This document shows, piece by piece, positions 9,921-19,292 of a stretch of 64,000 nt of DNA; position 1 is the first letter of the stretch; each line of letters begins with the position of its first letter. Source of the DNA: an uncultured Oscillospiraceae bacterium (GTDB lineage Bacteria > Bacillota > Clostridia > Oscillospirales > Oscillospiraceae); assembly GCA_944386985.1 (NCBI GenBank), contig CALXDD010000003.1, positions 81,036 to 145,035 of the forward strand, in the 5' to 3' direction. The position numbers were made by a program, and so were the translations under genes. The notes under the pieces are model-generated. The model was not told where the DNA came from, made no database searches, and saw only the letters and a list, made by a program, of their open reading frames with translations.

Positions 9921-10124
9921 CCAATTTTTTCACGGTTTGAAAAAACTCCCCTGCGTTTCGCTGCCTTTTCGGTCTGTTTTCGAGACTGGTATCCGCTCCC
10001 TTTCCAAAGTCCCCTTTTTTTGCAGCGGTCTGCCGCCGCTTTTTTTGACGGAAACAGGAGACAGTAAAGAGTGCCGCCGAGAGAGACAGAACGCGGCCAT
10101 GTTTTGAGAGGGGGGATTGAATGG

Positions 10125-11186
10125 ATGAAAAGACAAAAACAACACAAACCATGGAGGACCCGCGCCGGAGCGCTGCTGCTGGGACTGGCAATGTTTTCCA
10201 GTATGGGCGGCGTGGCGCGGGGCGCCTCAGGAGCCGGTGAGGGTAGTATGCCCAAAACATTGATTCCCATTGGCCACACCGTCGGAATCAAGCTGTTTTC
10301 CGAGGGCGTGCTGGTAGTGGGCCTGTCCGAACTGGAGACAAACAAAGGAACCGCGGCCCCTGCCAAGGACTGCGGGCTGAAGGTGGGCGACTTTATTCTG
10401 GAGGCCGACGGCAAAGAGGTGGAGAGTACGGAGCACTTTCAGAGCCTGATGGCAGCCGCAGGAGGCGAAGAAACCTGCCTGACTGTCAAACGAAACGGGA
10501 AGACCATGGAGCTGGAGGTATCCGGCGTCCAGTGCAGTGACGGCGCCTGGCGTCTTGGCGCCTGGGTCCGGGACAGTCTGGCGGGCATCGGTACCATGAC
10601 CTTCTATGATCCGGAAAGCGGCGTCTTTGCCACTCTGGGTCACGGCATCAACGATGTGGATACCGGCCAGCTGATGACCCTGGACGTGGGTTCCATCATG
10701 GGTTCCACAGTGAAAGCGGTGCAGAAAGGCGTATCCGGTCAGCCTGGGGAACTGCGGGGCGATTTTGACATGAGCGGTGATTTAGGCGATCTCTATGCCA
10801 ATACCGCCTGCGGTGTATTTGGTACAATGGACAGCTGTCCTATGGCGGCCAACAGCAAGGCAATAGAAGTGGCCCGGCCCGATCAGGTGCGCAAGGGCAG
10901 TGCGGAGATCCTGGCCAACATCAGCGGCGACCAAGTGGAGCGCTATCAGGTGGAGATCACCAAGATCTGCAGCGGGTCCGGCGATACCCAGAATTTTATT
11001 ATTAAAGTAACGGACCCGAAGCTGTTGGAGGCAACCGGCGGTATTGTGCAGGGAATGTCCGGGTCGCCGGTGATCCAGGACGGCAGATTGATTGGAGCGG
11101 TGACGCACGTCATGGTGGACGACCCAACCAGCGGATATGGTATATTTATTGAAAACATGTTGAACGCTGCCGGACTGTCCGGCTAA
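10125..11186 (+). CDS. spoIVB: SpoIVB peptidase (S55 family)
   Basis: SpoIVB is the secreted serine protease that signals from forespore to mother cell and activates pro-sigma-K processing. The product is 353 residues from ATG 10125, with GAGAGGGGGG as ribosome binding site. An N-terminal signal/anchor helix (about residues 14-30) is followed by a PDZ domain (about 60-130, with GLKVGDFILEADGKEV) and the S55 peptidase domain. The catalytic His lies in TLGHGI and the catalytic Ser (about 314) in QGMSGSPVIQDG. It lies directly upstream of spo0A, the conserved order in spore-forming Firmicutes. Confidence 0.95.
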   Translation: MKRQKQHKPWRTRAGALLLGLAMFSSMGGVARGASGAGEGSMPKTLIPIGHTVGIKLFSEGVLVVGLSELETNKGTAAPAKDCGLKVGDFILEADGKEVESTEHFQSLMAAAGGEETCLTVKRNGKTMELEVSGVQCSDGAWRLGAWVRDSLAGIGTMTFYDPESGVFATLGHGINDVDTGQLMTLDVGSIMGSTVKAVQKGVSGQPGELRGDFDMSGDLGDLYANTACGVFGTMDSCPMAANSKAIEVARPDQVRKGSAEILANISGDQVERYQVEITKICSGSGDTQNFIIKVTDPKLLEATGGIVQGMSGSPVIQDGRLIGAVTHVMVDDPTSGYGIFIENMLNAAGLSG

Positions 11187-11259: not shown

Positions 11260-11296
11260 TTCGACAAAAATGGAAAATATTGGATATTTTGTCGAA
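11260..11296. promoter_or_regulatory. Two inverted 0A boxes upstream of spo0A
   Basis: TTCGACAAA (11260-11268, minus-strand box) and TTTGTCGAA (11288-11296, plus-strand box) are exact matches to the Spo0A core site in opposite orientation, with 19 bp between them. A weaker TTCGACTT occurs at 11331. The position 170-206 bp before the spo0A ATG suggests autoregulation, as is known for spo0A in other species. Confidence 0.7.
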
Positions 11297-11465
11297 TATT
11301 TGTGGATGATTTTCCATTCTTCCTGCGTGATTCGACTTGAAAATCCTGTCCCATTATGCTAATTTATTGGTAAGGTCAAATGAAGCTTCAAGAATTCGTC
11401 TAAACAACCTCTTAACAGGGGAAGACGGGCCAAATATGTGATTTTTGGAAAAGGAATGTGGAAAA

Positions 11466-12221
11466 ATGGAGAATCGGATAAAAGTCATCATAGCGGATGG
11501 GAACGAGGAGTACCGGAGCCTGCTGACGGAAGCTGTGGAGGAGTCGGGAGAGTTCCAGGTAGTGGGCCAGGCCGGCGACGGACAGACAGCGGTGGAGCTG
11601 GCCCGGCAGACCGGGGCGGAGCTGATGCTGCTGGAGCTGGTTTTGCCGGGACTGGACGGCCTGGGCGTGCTCTCCAAGCTCAAGGAGATGGACAATGCGC
11701 CCCAGGTGATCGCCATGTCCGCCTTCTGCAGCCAGCAGACAGTGGCCATGGCGGGGATGCTGGGCGCCGCCTATTTCATGGCAAAGCCCTGTGATGAAAG
11801 CGCCCTGCTGGAGCGGATGCGGGCGGTGGTTTCCCTGACGGAGGAGGAACAGGAGGATCACGCCCCGGGGCTTGAGAGCCTGGTGACCTCTATCATCCAC
11901 GAGGTGGGGGTCCCGGCGCACATCAAGGGGTATCAATATGTGCGCGAGGCCATTATGATCGCCGTGGAGGATATGGAGGTCATCAACTCGGTGACGAAGG
12001 TGCTCTACCCCGAGGTGGCCAAGCGGTATGGTACGACTCCGTCCCGGGTGGAACGGGCGATCCGCCACGCCATTGAAGTGGCCTGGGACCGGGGCGATCT
12101 GGAGACGCTGCAGCGGTTCTTTGGCTACACTGTCTCCAATGCCAAGGGAAAACCCACCAATTCAGAATTTATCGCTATGATTTCCGACCGAATCCGGCTG
12201 CAGCTGAAGGTCAAGCGCTGA
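11466..12221 (+). CDS. spo0A: Sporulation master regulator Spo0A with altered receiver site
   Basis: A 251-residue Spo0A from ATG 11466; an upstream in-frame TTG has no support. Residues 1-120 form a receiver domain and about 145-251 the Spo0A effector domain, with the recognition region [21 protein letters not shown] almost identical to the classical one. Synteny after spoIVB makes this the spo0A ortholog. The receiver is unusual: the phosphoacceptor Asp is Glu57 ([14 protein letters not shown] at 11634-11636), and the acidic pair ADDN is ADGN (Gly12). Ser85 and Lys107 are kept. Canonical aspartyl phosphorylation therefore looks impossible. A mimic of the active state, or control by binding partners, is inference. 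Confidence 0.95.
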
Positions 12222-12721: not shown

Positions 12722-13162
12722 TCAGGTTTGATAATAGGCGTTGGTGGGATTATAGAAGCAGTGGTCCCCGATGCGGATATACCAGTATCCTACATCGGAG
12801 GGAAACCGGGAGCGGCAGTTGGGGCCGAAGGGGTTGTAGAACCACAGGGCGTCGGCCACCTCCGGCAGCCGTCCGCCGGCGATGGCCCAGTCGGCGATCT
12901 CATAGTGGATGGCCTCCGGGCGCATGTTGTAGATGTTTTGGGGGTTGTAGGCCCCGTTTTCTGTTTCACTGGCGCAGACGAACTGGTAGGGCTGAAAAAT
13001 GATGTTGCGGATGCTGCCCTGGCCCACCCGGGCGTACTCGCCGCCCTTGGCGTTGACGCGGTTCATCACCACGGTGGCCACCGCCCGCATCCCGCGGTCG
13101 CCCTCGCCGCCTGCCTCACATTGGATGAGCCTCGCAAGAAGCTCGCGGTCAGAATAAGCCAT
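12722..13162 (-). CDS. cwlJ: Spore cortex-lytic enzyme, SleB/CwlJ family
   Basis: A 146-residue cell-wall hydrolase of the SleB/CwlJ (hydrolase_2) family, which degrades cortex peptidoglycan during germination. Visible blocks are LLARLIQCEAGGEGDRGMRAVATVVMNRV near the start (given here as its positions, about residues 8-36, with catalytic Glu in CEAGGE), then IIFQPYQF and ALWFYNP. There is no signal peptide or peptidoglycan-binding domain, which fits CwlJ rather than SleB. It is first in an operon with gerQ. Confidence 0.9.
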   Translation of the reverse strand: MAYSDRELLARLIQCEAGGEGDRGMRAVATVVMNRVNAKGGEYARVGQGSIRNIIFQPYQFVCASETENGAYNPQNIYNMRPEAIHYEIADWAIAGGRLPEVADALWFYNPFGPNCRSRFPSDVGYWYIRIGDHCFYNPTNAYYQT

Positions 13163-14285: not shown

Positions 14286-15497
14286 TCAGCGGCACACCAC
14301 AGGAAGCCGGTGTCCCAGCCCGGCAAGAAACTCGTTGGTGAGGATGCCGCACTTTTGGGCGACCTCCTCCGCCCGGATCTCCCTGCCGCCGTCCTCGCCA
14401 ATGAGGGTCACCGTGTCCCCAGCCACTGCCTGTGGGACGGCGGTTACATCCACCAGCAGCTGGTCCATGCACATCCGCCCCACCATGGGGCAACGGCGTC
14501 CGGAGAGGAGCACCTCCCCGCCCCGCTGGGTGAGACAGGCGGGGAGACCGTCGGCGTAGCCAATGGTCACCACCGCCAGCCGGGTGTCCCGCGCCGCCTG
14601 AAAGGCAAGGCCATAGCCTGCCCGTTCTCCGGCGGAGATGGTCCGCACCGAGGCCGCCCGGGCCCGGAGGGACAGCACCGGCCGGAGGGGCAGAGGACAG
14701 GGGACGCAGCCGGGGCTGCTTTGAACGCCGTAGAGGGCGATGCCCGCCCGGGCGTAGGCAGAGCCGGGCCGGGGCGGCAGGGTCCAGATCCCGGCGCTGG
14801 CCTGGAGGTGGACGGCTCCCGGGTTCAGTCCGGCGTTCCGGATGCATTGGACCGCATCCTCAAACAGAGCCAATTGGCGTCGGGCAAAGGCAGCGTCCCG
14901 GGGAATTGGACTGTCCGCGGTGCAAAGGTGGGAGAATACCCCCTCCACCTGGAGATGAGGCAGGTGGAAGAGGGTCAGGAGGGCCTCCTTATCCTCCGCC
15001 GGAATGCCCAGCCGGTGCATCCCGGTGTCTAAGGCCAGGTGGACCCGGAGAGGAATGCGCTGGGCGGAGAGTGCCTCACCGTGGGAGAGATCCGCCACCG
15101 CCTGTTGGAGACGAAAGTGTTGGAGAAGGGGGACCTCCTCCGGCGGGGTATAGCCCAGAATCAGGATGGTTCCCCGGACGCCGCGGCGTCGAAGGGCGAT
15201 CCCCTCGGAGAGACAGGCCACGGCAAAGGCATCCACTCCTTCCCGCTGGAGGGCCAGGGACAGGGGAACCGCACCGTGTCCGTAGGCGTCTGCCTTTACC
15301 ACCGCCATCAGACGGCACCCGGCGGGGAGAGCGTTCTGGAGGACCTGGGCGTTGTGACAGGCGGCATCCAGATTTGTTTCCCGCCAGGCCCGGCCGGTGG
15401 GGGAGACGCGCAGACCCTCCAAGGGCCGGGGGAGGCGGCGGAGGGCGGAGAAGAGGGAGAGGGAAGAATGTCGGGCGGGAAGGAGCGCTTCTGTCAT
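14286..15497 (-). CDS. vanT: VanT-like serine/alanine racemase, racemase domain only
   Basis: A 403-residue PLP-dependent racemase. The PLP lysine is in VVKADAYGHG (about residue 68), and the C-terminal domain contains the GYGLAF tyrosine and a GRMCMDQ block. In VanG-type operons vanT makes D-Ser for the D-Ala-D-Ser ligase. Known VanT proteins are about 700 residues with an N-terminal membrane acyltransferase-like domain for L-Ser uptake. Here that domain is absent and only about 37 unaligned residues precede the racemase fold. The start overlaps the vanXY stop by 4 bases. An alanine racemase function cannot be excluded; the operon position favours VanT. Confidence 0.85.
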   Translation of the reverse strand: MTEALLPARHSSLSLFSALRRLPRPLEGLRVSPTGRAWRETNLDAACHNAQVLQNALPAGCRLMAVVKADAYGHGAVPLSLALQREGVDAFAVACLSEGIALRRRGVRGTILILGYTPPEEVPLLQHFRLQQAVADLSHGEALSAQRIPLRVHLALDTGMHRLGIPAEDKEALLTLFHLPHLQVEGVFSHLCTADSPIPRDAAFARRQLALFEDAVQCIRNAGLNPGAVHLQASAGIWTLPPRPGSAYARAGIALYGVQSSPGCVPCPLPLRPVLSLRARAASVRTISAGERAGYGLAFQAARDTRLAVVTIGYADGLPACLTQRGGEVLLSGRRCPMVGRMCMDQLLVDVTAVPQAVAGDTVTLIGEDGGREIRAEEVAQKCGILTNEFLAGLGHRLPVVCR

Positions 15498-16237
15498 GCG
15501 GGGTCCCCCCAGACGGTGAGGAAGAACCCATTCTGGTTGTCCCCGGAGATCTGCCAGCAGCCCTTGGGGATCTCCAGCTCCACCGCCTCCCCCGGGCAGG
15601 GGAGATAGGAGACGGTGACGGACCGGCCATTTGCCAGATGGAGGGTCCGGGGCTGCTCCTGGACAAAGGGGCGGTATTCCTCCAGACAGAGGTCATGCTC
15701 CTCCATCAGCGTGGCGTGGGGGGCGCCGACGTAGCGGAAATGCCAGGGCTCCTCGCTGATACCGGTGAGGGCCTCCTTTTCCCGCCGGTACCGCTGAAGA
15801 AAGCCGTAGCGGGCGGCGCAGCGGCGGAACTCACCGCACACCCCGCTGGAGGGAAAATTGGGGCGGATGAAGTCGATGACGGGGGCGGCCTTCCCAAGAT
15901 CGATGGCCAGCCCCGTCTGGTGCTCGCTGCAGCCCGGCAGGGCCACATACTGCCGGGTGAAGGCGGGGCCTTCCTTTTCCATGGTATCGTCCCAGATGGC
16001 CTGCTGCTCCCGCTGGCTGCGCCAGCCGGAGACGGGGACAATCCGCCCCCGGCCCCCCACCGCCTGGATGCAAGCCGAAAGCAGTCCGGCGGTCCGGCGC
16101 TCCAGGAGGATCTGGGGAAACCGGTCGTCGGCGGGGACCAGGCCTTCCGGTTCAGGTCCCTGGAGGGGATGACGGGCATTGACGAGAACCAGGGGGCCGT
16201 TATGGATCTGGCGGCGGTGCAAAGTCAGCGTGCCCAT
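15494..16237 (-). CDS. vanXY: VanXY-type D,D-peptidase
   Basis: A 247-residue zinc D,D-dipeptidase/carboxypeptidase of the VanY/VanXY family. The zinc-binding motif is SEHQTGLAIDL and the catalytic Glu/His are in EEPWHFRYVG, with an upstream SGWRS block. No signal peptide or membrane anchor is seen, which fits cytoplasmic VanXY rather than VanY. It would remove D-Ala-D-Ala and D-Ala from precursors so that D-Ala-D-Ser termini prevail. The start overlaps the end of the vanG gene by 13 bases. Confidence 0.88.
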   Translation of the reverse strand: MGTLTLHRRQIHNGPLVLVNARHPLQGPEPEGLVPADDRFPQILLERRTAGLLSACIQAVGGRGRIVPVSGWRSQREQQAIWDDTMEKEGPAFTRQYVALPGCSEHQTGLAIDLGKAAPVIDFIRPNFPSSGVCGEFRRCAARYGFLQRYRREKEALTGISEEPWHFRYVGAPHATLMEEHDLCLEEYRPFVQEQPRTLHLANGRSVTVSYLPCPGEAVELEIPKGCWQISGDNQNGFFLTVWGDPA

Positions 16238-17271
16238 TGTGACACCCCCGTTTCCAAAATCCGGTCAATGAGCTGGGGGAAGGAGAGGCCGATGCCCGCC
16301 ATCATACTGGGGTAGCGGCTGTGAGGGGTGAAGCCGGGTATGGTGTTTACCTCGTTGAAGAGGATACGGCCCTCCGGTGTCAGAAAGAAGTCTACCCTGG
16401 CAAAGACCTGGCAGTCCAGGGCCCGGAAGAGCACCTTAGCAGTCTCCTGAATCTCCCGGGCCTTCTCCGGGGCGATCCGGGCGGGACAGTGGATGGAGGA
16501 GGTCTTCAGGGTGTACTTTTCCTCAAAGTCGAAGAACCCCTGACTCAGCGCGATCTCGTCCACCAGTCCCACCGTCAGCGTCTCCCGGCCCAGCACGGCG
16601 CAGCCCACCTCGAAGCCGGATACCGCCTCCTCCAGCAAGATCTCCCGGTCGTTGGCGAAGGCCAGCTCCACTGCCGCTTTCAGTTCCTCAGACTTCTCCA
16701 CCCGGGTGACGCCGAAGGAGGAGCCGGAGCGGACGGGCTTGACGAAAAGGGGATAGCCCAGGGACTCCCCGGCGGCGGCCATGTCCGAAAGGGGAGCGCC
16801 CCGGCGGAAGAGAGTGCTGCGGGGCACCGGGATGCCCGCCAGGGCGGCCAGCTTGTGGGCCCGGTCCTTGTCCATGCACAGAGCACTGGAGAGAGCGCCG
16901 CAGCCGATAATGGGGACCCCCGCCAGCTCCAAAAGGCCCTGGACGGTGCCGTCCTCCCCATTTTTGCCGTGGAGCACCGGGAAGGCGGCGTCAAAGGAGA
17001 GGCGGCGGTCAGAGCCGTCCAGCAGCAAAAGATGGCTGCGTCCCCGGTCCAGGCTCAGGGTGCAGGGAGTGCAGCGGTCCTGGCACCAGGTGCCGTTCTC
17101 CAGCCGGGAGAGGGGACCGTCGTAGAAAAGCCACTTGCCGTCCCGGGTGATCCCCACCAGCAGAGGAGTGTGCCGATTGGTGTCCATGTGGGTGAGGATG
17201 CCGTAGGCGGACTGGAGAGACACGCCGTACTCCGTGGAGCAGCCGCCGAACAACACCAAAATCTGTTTCAT
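16225..17271 (-). CDS. vanG: D-Ala-D-Ser ligase, VanG type
   Basis: A 348-residue ATP-grasp ligase of the D-Ala-D-X family and of normal length. Family blocks include the N-terminal LFGGCSTEYGVSL, FPVLHGKNGEDGTVQG, LFVKPVRSGSSFGV, and the ATP/Mg-binding FNEVNTIPGFT. The segment DFEEKYTLKTSSI (about residues 251-263) matches the omega loop of VanG/VanC-type ligases, which carries EKYTL rather than the Ddl sequence. From memory it aligns closely with VanG over its whole length. Together with vanXY and vanT it is predicted to confer low-level vancomycin resistance, if expressed. Confidence 0.93.
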   Translation of the reverse strand: MKQILVLFGGCSTEYGVSLQSAYGILTHMDTNRHTPLLVGITRDGKWLFYDGPLSRLENGTWCQDRCTPCTLSLDRGRSHLLLLDGSDRRLSFDAAFPVLHGKNGEDGTVQGLLELAGVPIIGCGALSSALCMDKDRAHKLAALAGIPVPRSTLFRRGAPLSDMAAAGESLGYPLFVKPVRSGSSFGVTRVEKSEELKAAVELAFANDREILLEEAVSGFEVGCAVLGRETLTVGLVDEIALSQGFFDFEEKYTLKTSSIHCPARIAPEKAREIQETAKVLFRALDCQVFARVDFFLTPEGRILFNEVNTIPGFTPHSRYPSMMAGIGLSFPQLIDRILETGVSQWAR

Positions 17272-17294
17272 AGAAAAGACCTCCTGAAAAGGCG

Positions 17295-17341
17295 AATGCG
17301 CCCTGTTTTGCTGTAAAAATCATAGCAAAACAGGGCGCATT
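17295..17341. terminator. Strong hairpin between vanS and vanG
   Basis: An 18-bp perfect stem (17295-17312 with 17324-17341) lies in the 119-bp gap between vanS and vanG. On the minus strand, the direction of the operon, the 3' arm is followed by CGCCTTTT, a poor T-run; on the plus strand it is followed by TTGTTTT. It may partly end vanRS transcription or act as an attenuator ahead of vanG. Confidence 0.6.
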
Positions 17342-17390
17342 TTGTTTTCGCTTTCTCTTTCGCCTTTCCTGAGAAAGTCTTGGGAAAATC

Positions 17391-18485
17391 TTACGAATTT
17401 CTTGCGGCGGGCAGCGTAACAGTAAAGATGATCTGCTCCTCGGCGCTTCGGGCGGTGATGGTGCCGCCGTGGGCCTCCACGATTTCCTTGGCAATGGCGA
17501 GACCAAGGCCTGCGTTGCCGGTGCCGGTGCTCCGGGAGGTGTCCAGACGGAAAAACTGCTCGAACATCCGTGAGAGTTTCTCCGGAGGGATGGTCCGGCC
17601 GGCGTTTTGGAAGGTGAGGACGATCGTCTGGCCCTGCCGCCGGCCCTCCACCTGAATGGCGGTGCCGGGGTAGCCGTAGTGGAGGGCGTTGTTGAGGAGG
17701 TTGTCGAAGACCCGGGCCATTTTATCCGCGTCGCATATTGCGGTGAGATCATCGGCTAAGGCCAGGGCACAGGACATGTCCTTTTGCTGCAGCACCGGGG
17801 CAAACTCACTGCACATCTGCTCCAGCATCCGCTTGAGATCCACTGTCCGGCACTCCAGCTCCAGATGGGTCAGGCTGAAGCGGGTGATGTCGAAAAATTC
17901 ATTCACCAAATCCTCCAGCCGCTCCGCCTTCTCCAGTGCCACCCCGGTGTACCGGGCCCGGAGCTGAGGGGAGAGCTGGGGCTCATCCCGCAGAAGAGTG
18001 AGATAGCCGATGACGCTGGTGAGAGGCGTTTTCAGATCGTGGGCCAGATAGACCACCAGGTCGTTTTTTCGCTGCTCCGCGTCCCGGGCCGCCCGGGCGT
18101 TCCGAAGAGCCTGTTCCCGCACCAGGTTCAGCTGATCCTCCGCCTGCTCCATTCCCTCCGGCAGGTGGATAGGCTCCTCGCCGGGGTGGGCCAGTTTCTC
18201 CGCCCCCTCCAGCAGCAGTGCCAGATTTTCCACTGGTCTTGCGATAAAGAAATAGCTGATGACCAGCCAACCCGCCAGCACCACTGCGGCTCCTACAAAA
18301 AAGAGGTTTTGCTCCACCCAATTCAAAAGCCGATAGAGAAAGGTGTCGTACCAGGTGATGGAGGCGCAGATGACGATACAGACCAGGGCGATGAGGACCA
18401 CCGCCACCGCCCATCCGAAAAGGGACAAAAGATAGCTGCCCCACACCTGCAGAGCGGTCTGCCGCTCCCGGCGGGGACGTCTCAT
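17391..18485 (-). CDS. vanS: VanS-like sensor histidine kinase
   Basis: A 364-residue kinase from the ATG at 18485; a TTG at 18503 would add six residues and overlap vanR. Two membrane helices (about residues 14-38 and 63-84) flank a short external loop, typical of VanS. A HAMP-like linker precedes the phosphoacceptor block VYLAHDLKTPLTSVIGYLTLL (His near residue 155; 21-residue block cited by key residues H-D-L-K-T-P). The ATPase domain has NLLNNALHYG and GLGLAIAKEIV. It pairs with the adjacent vanR. Confidence 0.92.
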   Translation of the reverse strand: MRRPRRERQTALQVWGSYLLSLFGWAVAVVLIALVCIVICASITWYDTFLYRLLNWVEQNLFFVGAAVVLAGWLVISYFFIARPVENLALLLEGAEKLAHPGEEPIHLPEGMEQAEDQLNLVREQALRNARAARDAEQRKNDLVVYLAHDLKTPLTSVIGYLTLLRDEPQLSPQLRARYTGVALEKAERLEDLVNEFFDITRFSLTHLELECRTVDLKRMLEQMCSEFAPVLQQKDMSCALALADDLTAICDADKMARVFDNLLNNALHYGYPGTAIQVEGRRQGQTIVLTFQNAGRTIPPEKLSRMFEQFFRLDTSRSTGTGNAGLGLAIAKEIVEAHGGTITARSAEEQIIFTVTLPAARNS

Positions 18486-18495
18486 TCCAGTCGGA

Positions 18496-19188
18496 TTACG
18501 CAATGGTATACCCCACCCCCCATACAGTTTTGATGAACTTGGGCTTCCGGCTGGGCTCGTGCATTTTCTCCCGCAGCCGGGCGATGTGGCTCATAACGGT
18601 ATTGTTGCTGTCCATGTACCGCTCCCCCCACACCGCCTCGAACAGCTCCTCGCTGGACACCACCTGACCCTGGCGGCTGCAGAGGTGCCACAGGATAGAA
18701 AACTCCAGGGGAGTGAGAGAGAGTTCCTCCCCAAAAAGGACGCACTTGTGGGTGGCCTTGGAGATCTGCAGGCCCCGGATGTCGTATTCCTCCAGGGCCT
18801 CCGGCTGGTGCTGGGGGTTGTAACGGGTGTAACGCCGCAGCTGAGTCTTCACCCGGGCCACCAACTCCAGGGGATTGAAGGGTTTGGTGATGTAGTCGTC
18901 GGCCCCAAGGGTCAGTCCGGTGATCTTGTCCATATCCTCCACCTTGGCTGTCAGCATCAAAATAGGAAAGAGGTGGCGCTCCCGGATCTTCTGGCAGAGG
19001 GTGAAGCCGTCCAGGTCCGGCAGCATTACATCCAGAATGGCCAGATCCAGGGGCTGGTGTTCCACGCAGGTCAGGGCCTCGGCAGCGGTGCCGAAGACAT
19101 GGACGGTGTACCCCTCATTTTTCAGATAGACTGCCACCAGATTGGCAATGGCCTCTTCATCATCTACAATTAATATATCTGTGCTCAT
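18496..19188 (-). CDS. vanR: VanR-like response regulator (OmpR/PhoB family)
   Basis: A 230-residue regulator from the ATG at 19188, chosen over 19200 because GGAG lies just before it and VanR proteins begin at this point. The receiver has the acidic pair in IVDDEE, phosphoacceptor Asp in LAILDVMLPDLDG, and Lys in YITKPFN. The C-terminal winged helix ends with KTVWGVGYTI. It starts the minus-strand van operon and is predicted to activate vanG-vanXY-vanT. Confidence 0.93.
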   Translation of the reverse strand: MSTDILIVDDEEAIANLVAVYLKNEGYTVHVFGTAAEALTCVEHQPLDLAILDVMLPDLDGFTLCQKIRERHLFPILMLTAKVEDMDKITGLTLGADDYITKPFNPLELVARVKTQLRRYTRYNPQHQPEALEEYDIRGLQISKATHKCVLFGEELSLTPLEFSILWHLCSRQGQVVSSEELFEAVWGERYMDSNNTVMSHIARLREKMHEPSRKPKFIKTVWGVGYTIA

Positions 19189-19292
19189 ACCGCGCTCCAT
19201 AAGATGAATCTTGGGATTTGTCCGGCATCAATATAGCATAGATTCCGGCAGATTTCCACTCCGTTTTCAGCTTCGGATTTTCAGATAGGAGA

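Follow-up and report, generated by a model that had tools for sequence, protein, structure and literature searches.

Spo0A of an uncultured Oscillospiraceae bacterium and its relatives: a candidate pseudo-receiver in command of sporulation

The spo0A gene, its product and its neighbours

In this study, we examined a window of 64,000 nucleotides (the whole stretch of DNA that was analysed) from an uncultured Oscillospiraceae bacterium whose genome is a 3.0 Mb draft of 83 contigs, 95.5% complete. Spo0A, the master switch for spore formation, is normally activated by phosphate on one aspartate. The window contains a spo0A coding sequence of 251 amino acids on the forward strand (11466..12221), the sole Spo0A_C gene found in its own genome. 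The product is composed of a receiver (REC) domain with a remodelled pocket at residues 7-118 (11484..11819, forward strand; Pfam Response_reg, 67 bits) and a Spo0A_C DNA-binding domain at residues 140-243 (11883..12194, forward strand; Pfam, 157 bits), the latter being intact, as a first-pass annotation of the sequence had described it. The protein scores 285 bits against TIGR02875, the NCBIfam Spo0A equivalog, for which the cut-off is 200. With a receiver, a Spo0A_C domain and a score above that cut-off, the three features by which an orthologue was recognised, the gene is, as judged from its sequence, a true Spo0A orthologue. The AlphaFold2 model of the receiver is confident, with ten-residue blocks up to residue 120 at pLDDT 84-98, and Foldseek overlays the modelled receiver on the phosphorylated Spo0A receiver 1qmp_D with an rmsd of 0.8 Å over 122 columns. 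Sequence, model and overlay agree on a receiver fold that lacks the phospho-acceptor Asp, as in an aspartate-less receiver.

The departures from a phosphorylatable receiver lie in the pocket, all codons of which are given on the forward strand. The phospho-acceptor Asp is replaced by E57 (GAG, 11634..11636). Of the two acidic metal ligands, the first, D11 (DD1, 11496..11498), is kept, and the second, the direct Mg2+ ligand (DD2), is replaced by the non-acidic G12 (11499..11501), so that residues 10-13 read ADGN. The pocket Ser/Thr and Lys are both present as S85 (11718..11720) and K107 (11784..11786). The first-pass annotation had named the same Glu57, Gly12, Ser85 and Lys107, and the translation bears it out at each position. 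Two residues beyond the Lys (K+2) stands C109 (11790..11792). A changed second acid that activates a receiver is known from CheY D13K.

A base-call error at E57 is ruled out because the residue recurs in two sister species, which carry the whole D11-G12-E57 set at 92-94% identity (L032 = L113, and L114), and in strain genomes, namely the strain-named, non-MAG records of Flavonifractor sp. An100 (L070) and Pseudoflavonifractor capillosus An827 (L071), together with Pseudoflavonifractor sp. 60 (L086) and the complete genome of Clostridiales bacterium CCNA10 (L075). A second, canonical Spo0A, for which the annotation had asked that the genome be checked, is likewise rejected, since the profile search returned a single Spo0A_C match there; moreover, each of the 11 genus genomes has one full-length Spo0A among the matches listed. 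The draft and incomplete state of the assembly leaves some room for an artefact, or for a canonical copy in the missing part of the genome, but in view of the same residues in two sister genomes, of E57 in strain genomes and of these single copies we regard either as exceedingly improbable. Alongside its single Spo0A, the genome encodes SpoIVA and SpoIVB, both above their cut-offs, and a SpoIIE-like protein whose match falls below the curated cut-off. One family member, G078, has nine Spo0A_C matches in a 4.3-Mb single-contig genome, from which one copy (L299) was fetched.

The upstream neighbour of spo0A is spoIVB (10071..11186, forward strand; TIGR02860, 374 bits against a cut-off of 305). 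The annotation was correct in placing spo0A after spoIVB but not in adding that this is so in all spore-formers: at 30 of 71 named loci spoIVB lies upstream in the same orientation at a distance of up to 3 kb, and at the other 41 it does not. These 71 are the loci, out of 80 named, with at least 1.8 kb upstream; they were searched by tblastn with the SpoIVB of the window as query, and strongly diverged copies could have escaped it. In view of these counts, adjacency to spoIVB was dropped as proof of orthology. A scan of short flanks found spoIVB upstream in 62 of 150 cases in the family, 22 of 64 in the rest of the order and 27 of 52 in the rest of the class. At four loci (L061, L072, L094 and L102), spoIVB is upstream of spo0A on the opposite strand. 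Just downstream of spo0A, a small protein on the minus strand (12722-13162) weakly resembles SleB, a spore cortex-lytic enzyme (35 bits, far under the cut-off of 236). A VanG-type cluster occupies 14286-19200 on the minus strand, with a VanT-like serine racemase (468 bits; cut-off 460), a VanG-type D-Ala-D-Ser ligase (512; 495) and VanR (390; 350), and, below their cut-offs, VanXY-like (244; 500) and VanS-like kinase (371; 400) proteins.

The receiver pocket in the family, the order and the class

The alignment comprised 264 distinct relatives, the short proteins L004, L267 and L143 and identical duplicates having been removed beforehand. The sample was made up of the places returned as loci and 100 chosen regions, and per genome it was generally the best Spo0A match that was read. 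The family set (n=140) consisted of 63 distinct proteins from genomes, 76 named relatives and the window's own protein; other families of the order contributed 68 rows (69 with L107) and other orders of the class 56. Named relatives were assigned to the family by similarity, and by tree in the case of those included in the 57-row tree described below. L107 and L108 were taken out of the family set for residue counts, and L107 was retained in the count of 0A boxes.

When the Spo0A proteins of related Oscillospiraceae were aligned at residues 12 and 57, as the annotation had proposed, residue 12 proved never to be acidic in the 140 family members (A 63, S 20, T 17, P 16, G 12, V 5, and 7 others: Q, N, I, F, R) and residue 57 always to be so (D 113, E 27), with D11 kept in all of them. 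Other orders of the class have D12 in 52 of 56 and D57 in 55 of 56. The other families of the order show several kinds of deviation from the canonical pocket: residue 57 is D in 49, E in 9, N in 8, W in 1 and S in 1, residue 12 is D in 22 and E in 17, and K107 is retained in 52 of 68. Stronger pocket changes in these other families are found in L160 (W57, Q107), L216 (S57), L226-L228 (Q11, P107) and L203-L204 (N57, L107). The residue lost in all family members read is described as a direct metal binder in a 2025 review of pseudo-receivers (PMC12632262). The altered Spo0A is, on these alignments, not the oddity of one lineage, with the direct metal ligand gone from 140 of 140 and pocket changes spread over the order, and the sequences lend good support to the annotation's proposal that phosphorylation of the window Spo0A by the usual route is impossible. 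E57 is present in 36 of 177 Spo0A proteins with a broken acidic pair versus 0 of 87 with an intact pair (L220, with gaps at 11 and 12, was left out); in phylogenetically independent pairs the association is not significant (median p 0.5), the acidic pair seldom differing between the compared rows.

A general change of receivers in the genus genomes is rejected. Both acids and the Asp are kept in all 20 other receivers, with the Lys in 18 and Arg in 2; these represent 18 loci from the 11 genus genomes, which fall into a few kinds with several copies each, and two genes of the window; L134, whose match is to the DNA-binding domain, was not counted.

Exchanges between D and E at residue 57 were counted on a careful tree of 57 rows (27 E57 proteins, their 27 nearest D57 relatives and 3 outgroups) from which the pocket columns were excluded. 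This tree has 13 such changes, 10 of them forced by well-supported branches, and bootstraps gave 12-13. Within the window's own genus E57 appears at three separate places, in the window's clade, in L118 and in L121, the last being 93% identical to its D57 sister L120. L083, which has D among the E57 proteins of its clade, probably represents a reversal, and its exact placement there is weakly supported. On the family tree, 12 D/E changes fall at 57 and none at D11, D64, D241, E196, E204 or E234; positions 15 and 171 swap D and E 13 and 29 times, as often as 57 or more. From the number of swaps at 57 it would seem that D and E are functionally equivalent there, which ordinary phosphate acceptance could hardly allow; such swaps would be drastic in a protein that was switched by phosphorylating D57.

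Selection on the receiver was followed through column entropies and substitution rates. Relative to the other orders, the family has its largest rises in entropy at 61, 12 and 103, and at 57 the values are 0.71 vs 0.13. D11, D64, G65 and P108 are invariant in the family, and S85 and K107 nearly so. Mean column entropy of the receiver is 1.99 in the family vs 1.71 in the other orders, and that of the DNA-binding domain 0.44 vs 1.02. Part of the pocket pattern may reflect faster evolution of the receiver as a whole, because its entropy is higher and positions outside the pocket (82, 52, 36 and 117) are loosened too. In eight close pairs, dN/dS was 0.05-0.21 for the receiver and 0-0.03 for the DNA-binding domain. 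We read the receiver pattern as probable remodelling with faster evolution, not as decay.

Several residues near the pocket have changed and then become conserved in the family, R17, F87 and C109 being newly conserved. F87 (T+2) is found in 119 of 140 members, where other orders mostly have V (39/56); R17 and E14 of helix 1 in 121 (other orders C, 29/56) and 109 (other orders K or R, 40/56); and C109 in 115, where other orders have Phe in 39 of 56. It is possible, though rather unlikely, that the old phosphorylation pocket has been rebuilt into a binding or sensing site and that Spo0A answers to a ligand, to redox state or to a partner. The rarity of C109 elsewhere (3/69 in the rest of the order, 4/56 in other orders) would suit such a site, but Cys109 is not universal in the family and may serve packing only, and F87 is also present in B. 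subtilis Spo0A and in 26 of 69 proteins in the rest of the order.

The spo0A promoter and the sporulation circuit

A sequence scan found two exact 0A boxes (TGTCGAA) before spo0A, one on the minus strand at 11260..11266, 206 bases before the ATG, and one on the forward strand at 11290..11296, 176 bases before it. A one-mismatch box (11331-11337, minus strand) abuts a sigma-A-like promoter recognised by eye on the forward strand (TTGAAA at 11337-11342, a 17-base spacer and TAATTT at 11360-11365), the whole spanning 11331..11365. This element of box and promoter, TTCGACTTGAAA, recurs in 10 of 11 genus upstreams, L118 being the one without it; a wider pattern occurred in 10 of the 138 upstreams of the family and in none of 121 others, against 1 of 138 for the control.

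Exact boxes were counted in the 250 bases upstream of 139 genes (63 of the family set and 76 named, L107 included although it is outside the family). At least one was present in 94 and at least two in 32. The corresponding numbers were 26 and 0 among 54 genes from other orders of the class (0.48 boxes per gene) and 25 and 4 among 66 from elsewhere in the order (0.45 boxes per gene). Given an expectation of 0.02-0.04 exact boxes per gene and the rarity of scrambled words, these counts indicate that the 0A boxes before spo0A are real. The number of boxes hardly differs between D57 genes (0.94 per gene) and E57 genes (1.16), and the doubling of boxes in the family is, as far as these counts go, not a general companion of pocket damage. 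Across the window's own genome, a longer and more stringent 0A-box pattern was not enriched (10 matches vs 9 for the reversed-pattern control), two of the 10 being the boxes of the spo0A promoter. Strong boxes also precede a FlgB-like flagellar gene (G000:C1:90376, L312) and a GAPDH-like gene (G000:C11:2420, L319) by about 100-130 bases, both genes being named by eye and the boxes statistically unsupported.

The upstreams of spoIIE at 11 loci (frames wrong for L300, L302 and L309) contained no clear 0A boxes and were not used as support; one-mismatch sites lie near the start in L301, L304 and L306, and L308 has one exact box 200 bases upstream and one one-mismatch box. In 7 of 11 cases (L301, L303, L304, L305, L306, L308 and L310), inspection by eye showed about 40 conserved bases (TTTTCCCGACAG, followed by AACCTCA and a TGTA-type end) a short way upstream of the first Met of the SpoIIE-like gene, perhaps the spoIIE promoter. 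The SpoIIE-like proteins themselves (L300-L310, from G000:C8 and the genus genomes) are shorter, with open frames of 543-692 aa, and match only the middle and C-terminal parts of TIGR02865, none of the 11 over its cut-off; their N-terminal part may be changed or missing.

In Bacillus, a Spo0E-like phosphatase acts on phosphorylated Spo0A. Such a phosphatase (PF09388) was found in 56 of 147 genomes of the class and in none of 147 from the order; among class genomes in which the pocket was read, it is present in 34 of 50 with a canonical pocket, being absent from 16 of them, and in 0 of 6 with a non-canonical one. Spo0A is mostly kept and lost together with SpoIVA: in the 147 order genomes both are present in 134, both are absent in 6, and one without the other is found in 4 and 3. 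The Fisher value for this association (p 1.3e-6) overstates the link, because four of the six joint absences belong to one genus.

It could be argued that constraint has been relaxed and that Spo0A is decaying towards the loss of sporulation, in agreement with the greater variability of the family receiver, with the still more variable pocket elsewhere in the order (N, E, W and S at 57; K107 in 52 of 68) and with a report of Oscillibacter valericigenes as non-sporulating despite spo0A and sporulation sigma factors (PMC3558957). However, D11, D64, G65 and P108 are invariant and K107 nearly invariant in the family, and receiver dN/dS is well below 1, findings for which decay of Spo0A alone was disfavoured; SpoIVA accompanies Spo0A in most genomes of the order and 0A boxes are kept before spo0A. 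We consider such decay very unlikely.

Proposed control of Spo0A without aspartate phosphorylation

The window Spo0A resembles canonical Spo0A of B. subtilis and C. difficile (TIGR02875) in domain order, equivalog score, DNA-binding domain and receiver fold, as well as in its spoIVB neighbour and the 0A boxes before its gene. It stands in contrast to them in having neither the phospho-acceptor Asp nor the direct metal ligand, and in belonging to an order in whose 147 genomes no Spo0E-like phosphatase was found. It shares these pocket changes with aspartate-less receivers or pseudo-receivers, among which Glu most often takes the place of the Asp (26%) and, of the two acids, the first tends to be retained and the second to be missing (PMC4395418, PMC12632262). 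However, Spo0A is not presented as one of them in either paper: the main text of PMC12632262 does not mention it, and its two mentions in PMC4395418 concern Asp-to-Glu substitutions and a reference title. ChxR of Chlamydia also has a natural Glu at the phospho-site and binds DNA constitutively (PMC4395418), but it belongs to the OmpR family and is not a sporulation regulator, and it is likened here by description, not by sequence. In actinomycete GlnR, the unphosphorylated Asp of the phospho-site supports the homodimer by charge interactions (review PMC10704036). Its likeness to the window Spo0A is proposed by analogy; GlnR is an OmpR-family protein with a different pocket (Arg52, Thr9) and is known from structures, whereas the window Spo0A is known from sequence.

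The first-pass annotation had suggested either a constitutively active, phosphomimetic form or control by level, partner proteins or a ligand. As a general answer the phosphomimetic form is not favoured, because D57 and E57 interchange 10-13 times as if they were equivalent and because Glu alone is often not enough to mimic phosphate, Spo0A being among the named examples (PMC4395418). A broader form of the idea is that phosphorylation persists: D57 relatives would receive phosphate despite an impaired metal site, or would do so at a different residue or from Ser/Thr kinases, and E57 lineages, the window's among them, would be constitutive phosphomimetics. Such persistence would account for D57 in 113 of 140 members, for Glu as the sole replacement and for the near fixation of S85 and K107; Glu at this site can partly mimic phosphate (PMC4395418, PMC12632262), and Glu phosphorylation has been recorded in other cases (PMC4395418). 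Nevertheless, we judge it improbable, as every family member read lacks the metal ligand, the order sample has no Spo0E-like phosphatase (0/147), Glu by itself is often insufficient, and repeated interchange is hard to square with one residue being switched and the other always on.

We propose instead that the receiver of Spo0A became a pseudo-receiver while its fold and the DNA-binding domain were retained. Residue 57 would no longer be a phosphate acceptor; D11, D/E57, S85 and K107 may form a metal-free charge network of which residue 57 is one corner, and this network might stabilise a receiver conformation that is competent for binding or that binds a partner, in the manner reported for the unphosphorylated Asp of GlnR. 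The sporulation decision could then be set by the amount of Spo0A and not by histidine-kinase phosphorylation, and such level control may run through the autoregulated spo0A promoter with its 0A boxes, these last two steps being the least certain. Alternatively, control might be exerted by a ligand or partner that uses the rebuilt pocket (F87, C109, E14, R17).

These parts do not carry equal weight. That Spo0A is independent of Asp phosphorylation seems to us quite likely. Control by Spo0A level, the weakest part, is a tentative proposal that we place slightly on the doubtful side; it fits the 0A boxes before spo0A. Taken whole, the statement that the family's Spo0A receiver is a pseudo-receiver independent of Asp phosphorylation, with Spo0A level deciding sporulation, is one towards which we lean only slightly. 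We lean a little more firmly to the wider formulation, in which a Spo0A without Asp phosphorylation would command entry into sporulation in the Oscillospiraceae and, probably, in a number of further families of the order: the metal site would have been lost first, residue 57 would then have drifted between Asp and Glu, the Spo0E branch would be absent, and control would have passed to the amount of Spo0A or to a new ligand or partner.

In favour of a pseudo-receiver we counted the ligand loss in 140 of 140 as against 4 of 56 in other orders, the acidic residue 57 in all 140, the D/E swaps, the low receiver dN/dS, the 20 of 20 intact other receivers, the lack of Spo0E (0/147), the co-occurrence with SpoIVA and the 0A boxes. 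Counted against it are that D57 relatives might still be phosphorylated weakly, that the independent pairs are non-significant, that the receiver is loosened and that swaps are frequent at 15 and 171. Also counted against it are the absence of Spo0E from 16 of 50 canonical class genomes, the non-independent co-loss with SpoIVA, extra boxes that do not follow pocket damage, no genome-wide box enrichment and no clear spoIIE boxes.

Asp phosphorylation of Spo0A is treated as general in a review and an evolutionary survey (one of the two being PMC6136694), and the main text of PMC6136694 contains no word beginning Oscillo or Ruminococ. A literature search, which most subscription papers lay outside, found no description of Spo0A as a pseudo-receiver among the titles and abstract openings listed, and nothing on Spo0A with D56E. 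Pseudo-receivers are already known, and Glu-for-Asp is their commonest change; Spo0A as one of them would be new.

It seems, then, that this bacterium and its relatives probably start sporulation in another way than by Asp phosphorylation. How pseudo-receivers are switched is called a mystery in the 2025 review (PMC12632262), and the natural D/E swaps at residue 57, at least 10 in number, would offer ready-made pairs for testing it. If a whole family of gut bacteria sporulates without Asp phosphorylation, kinase-centred models would fail for many gut spore-formers.
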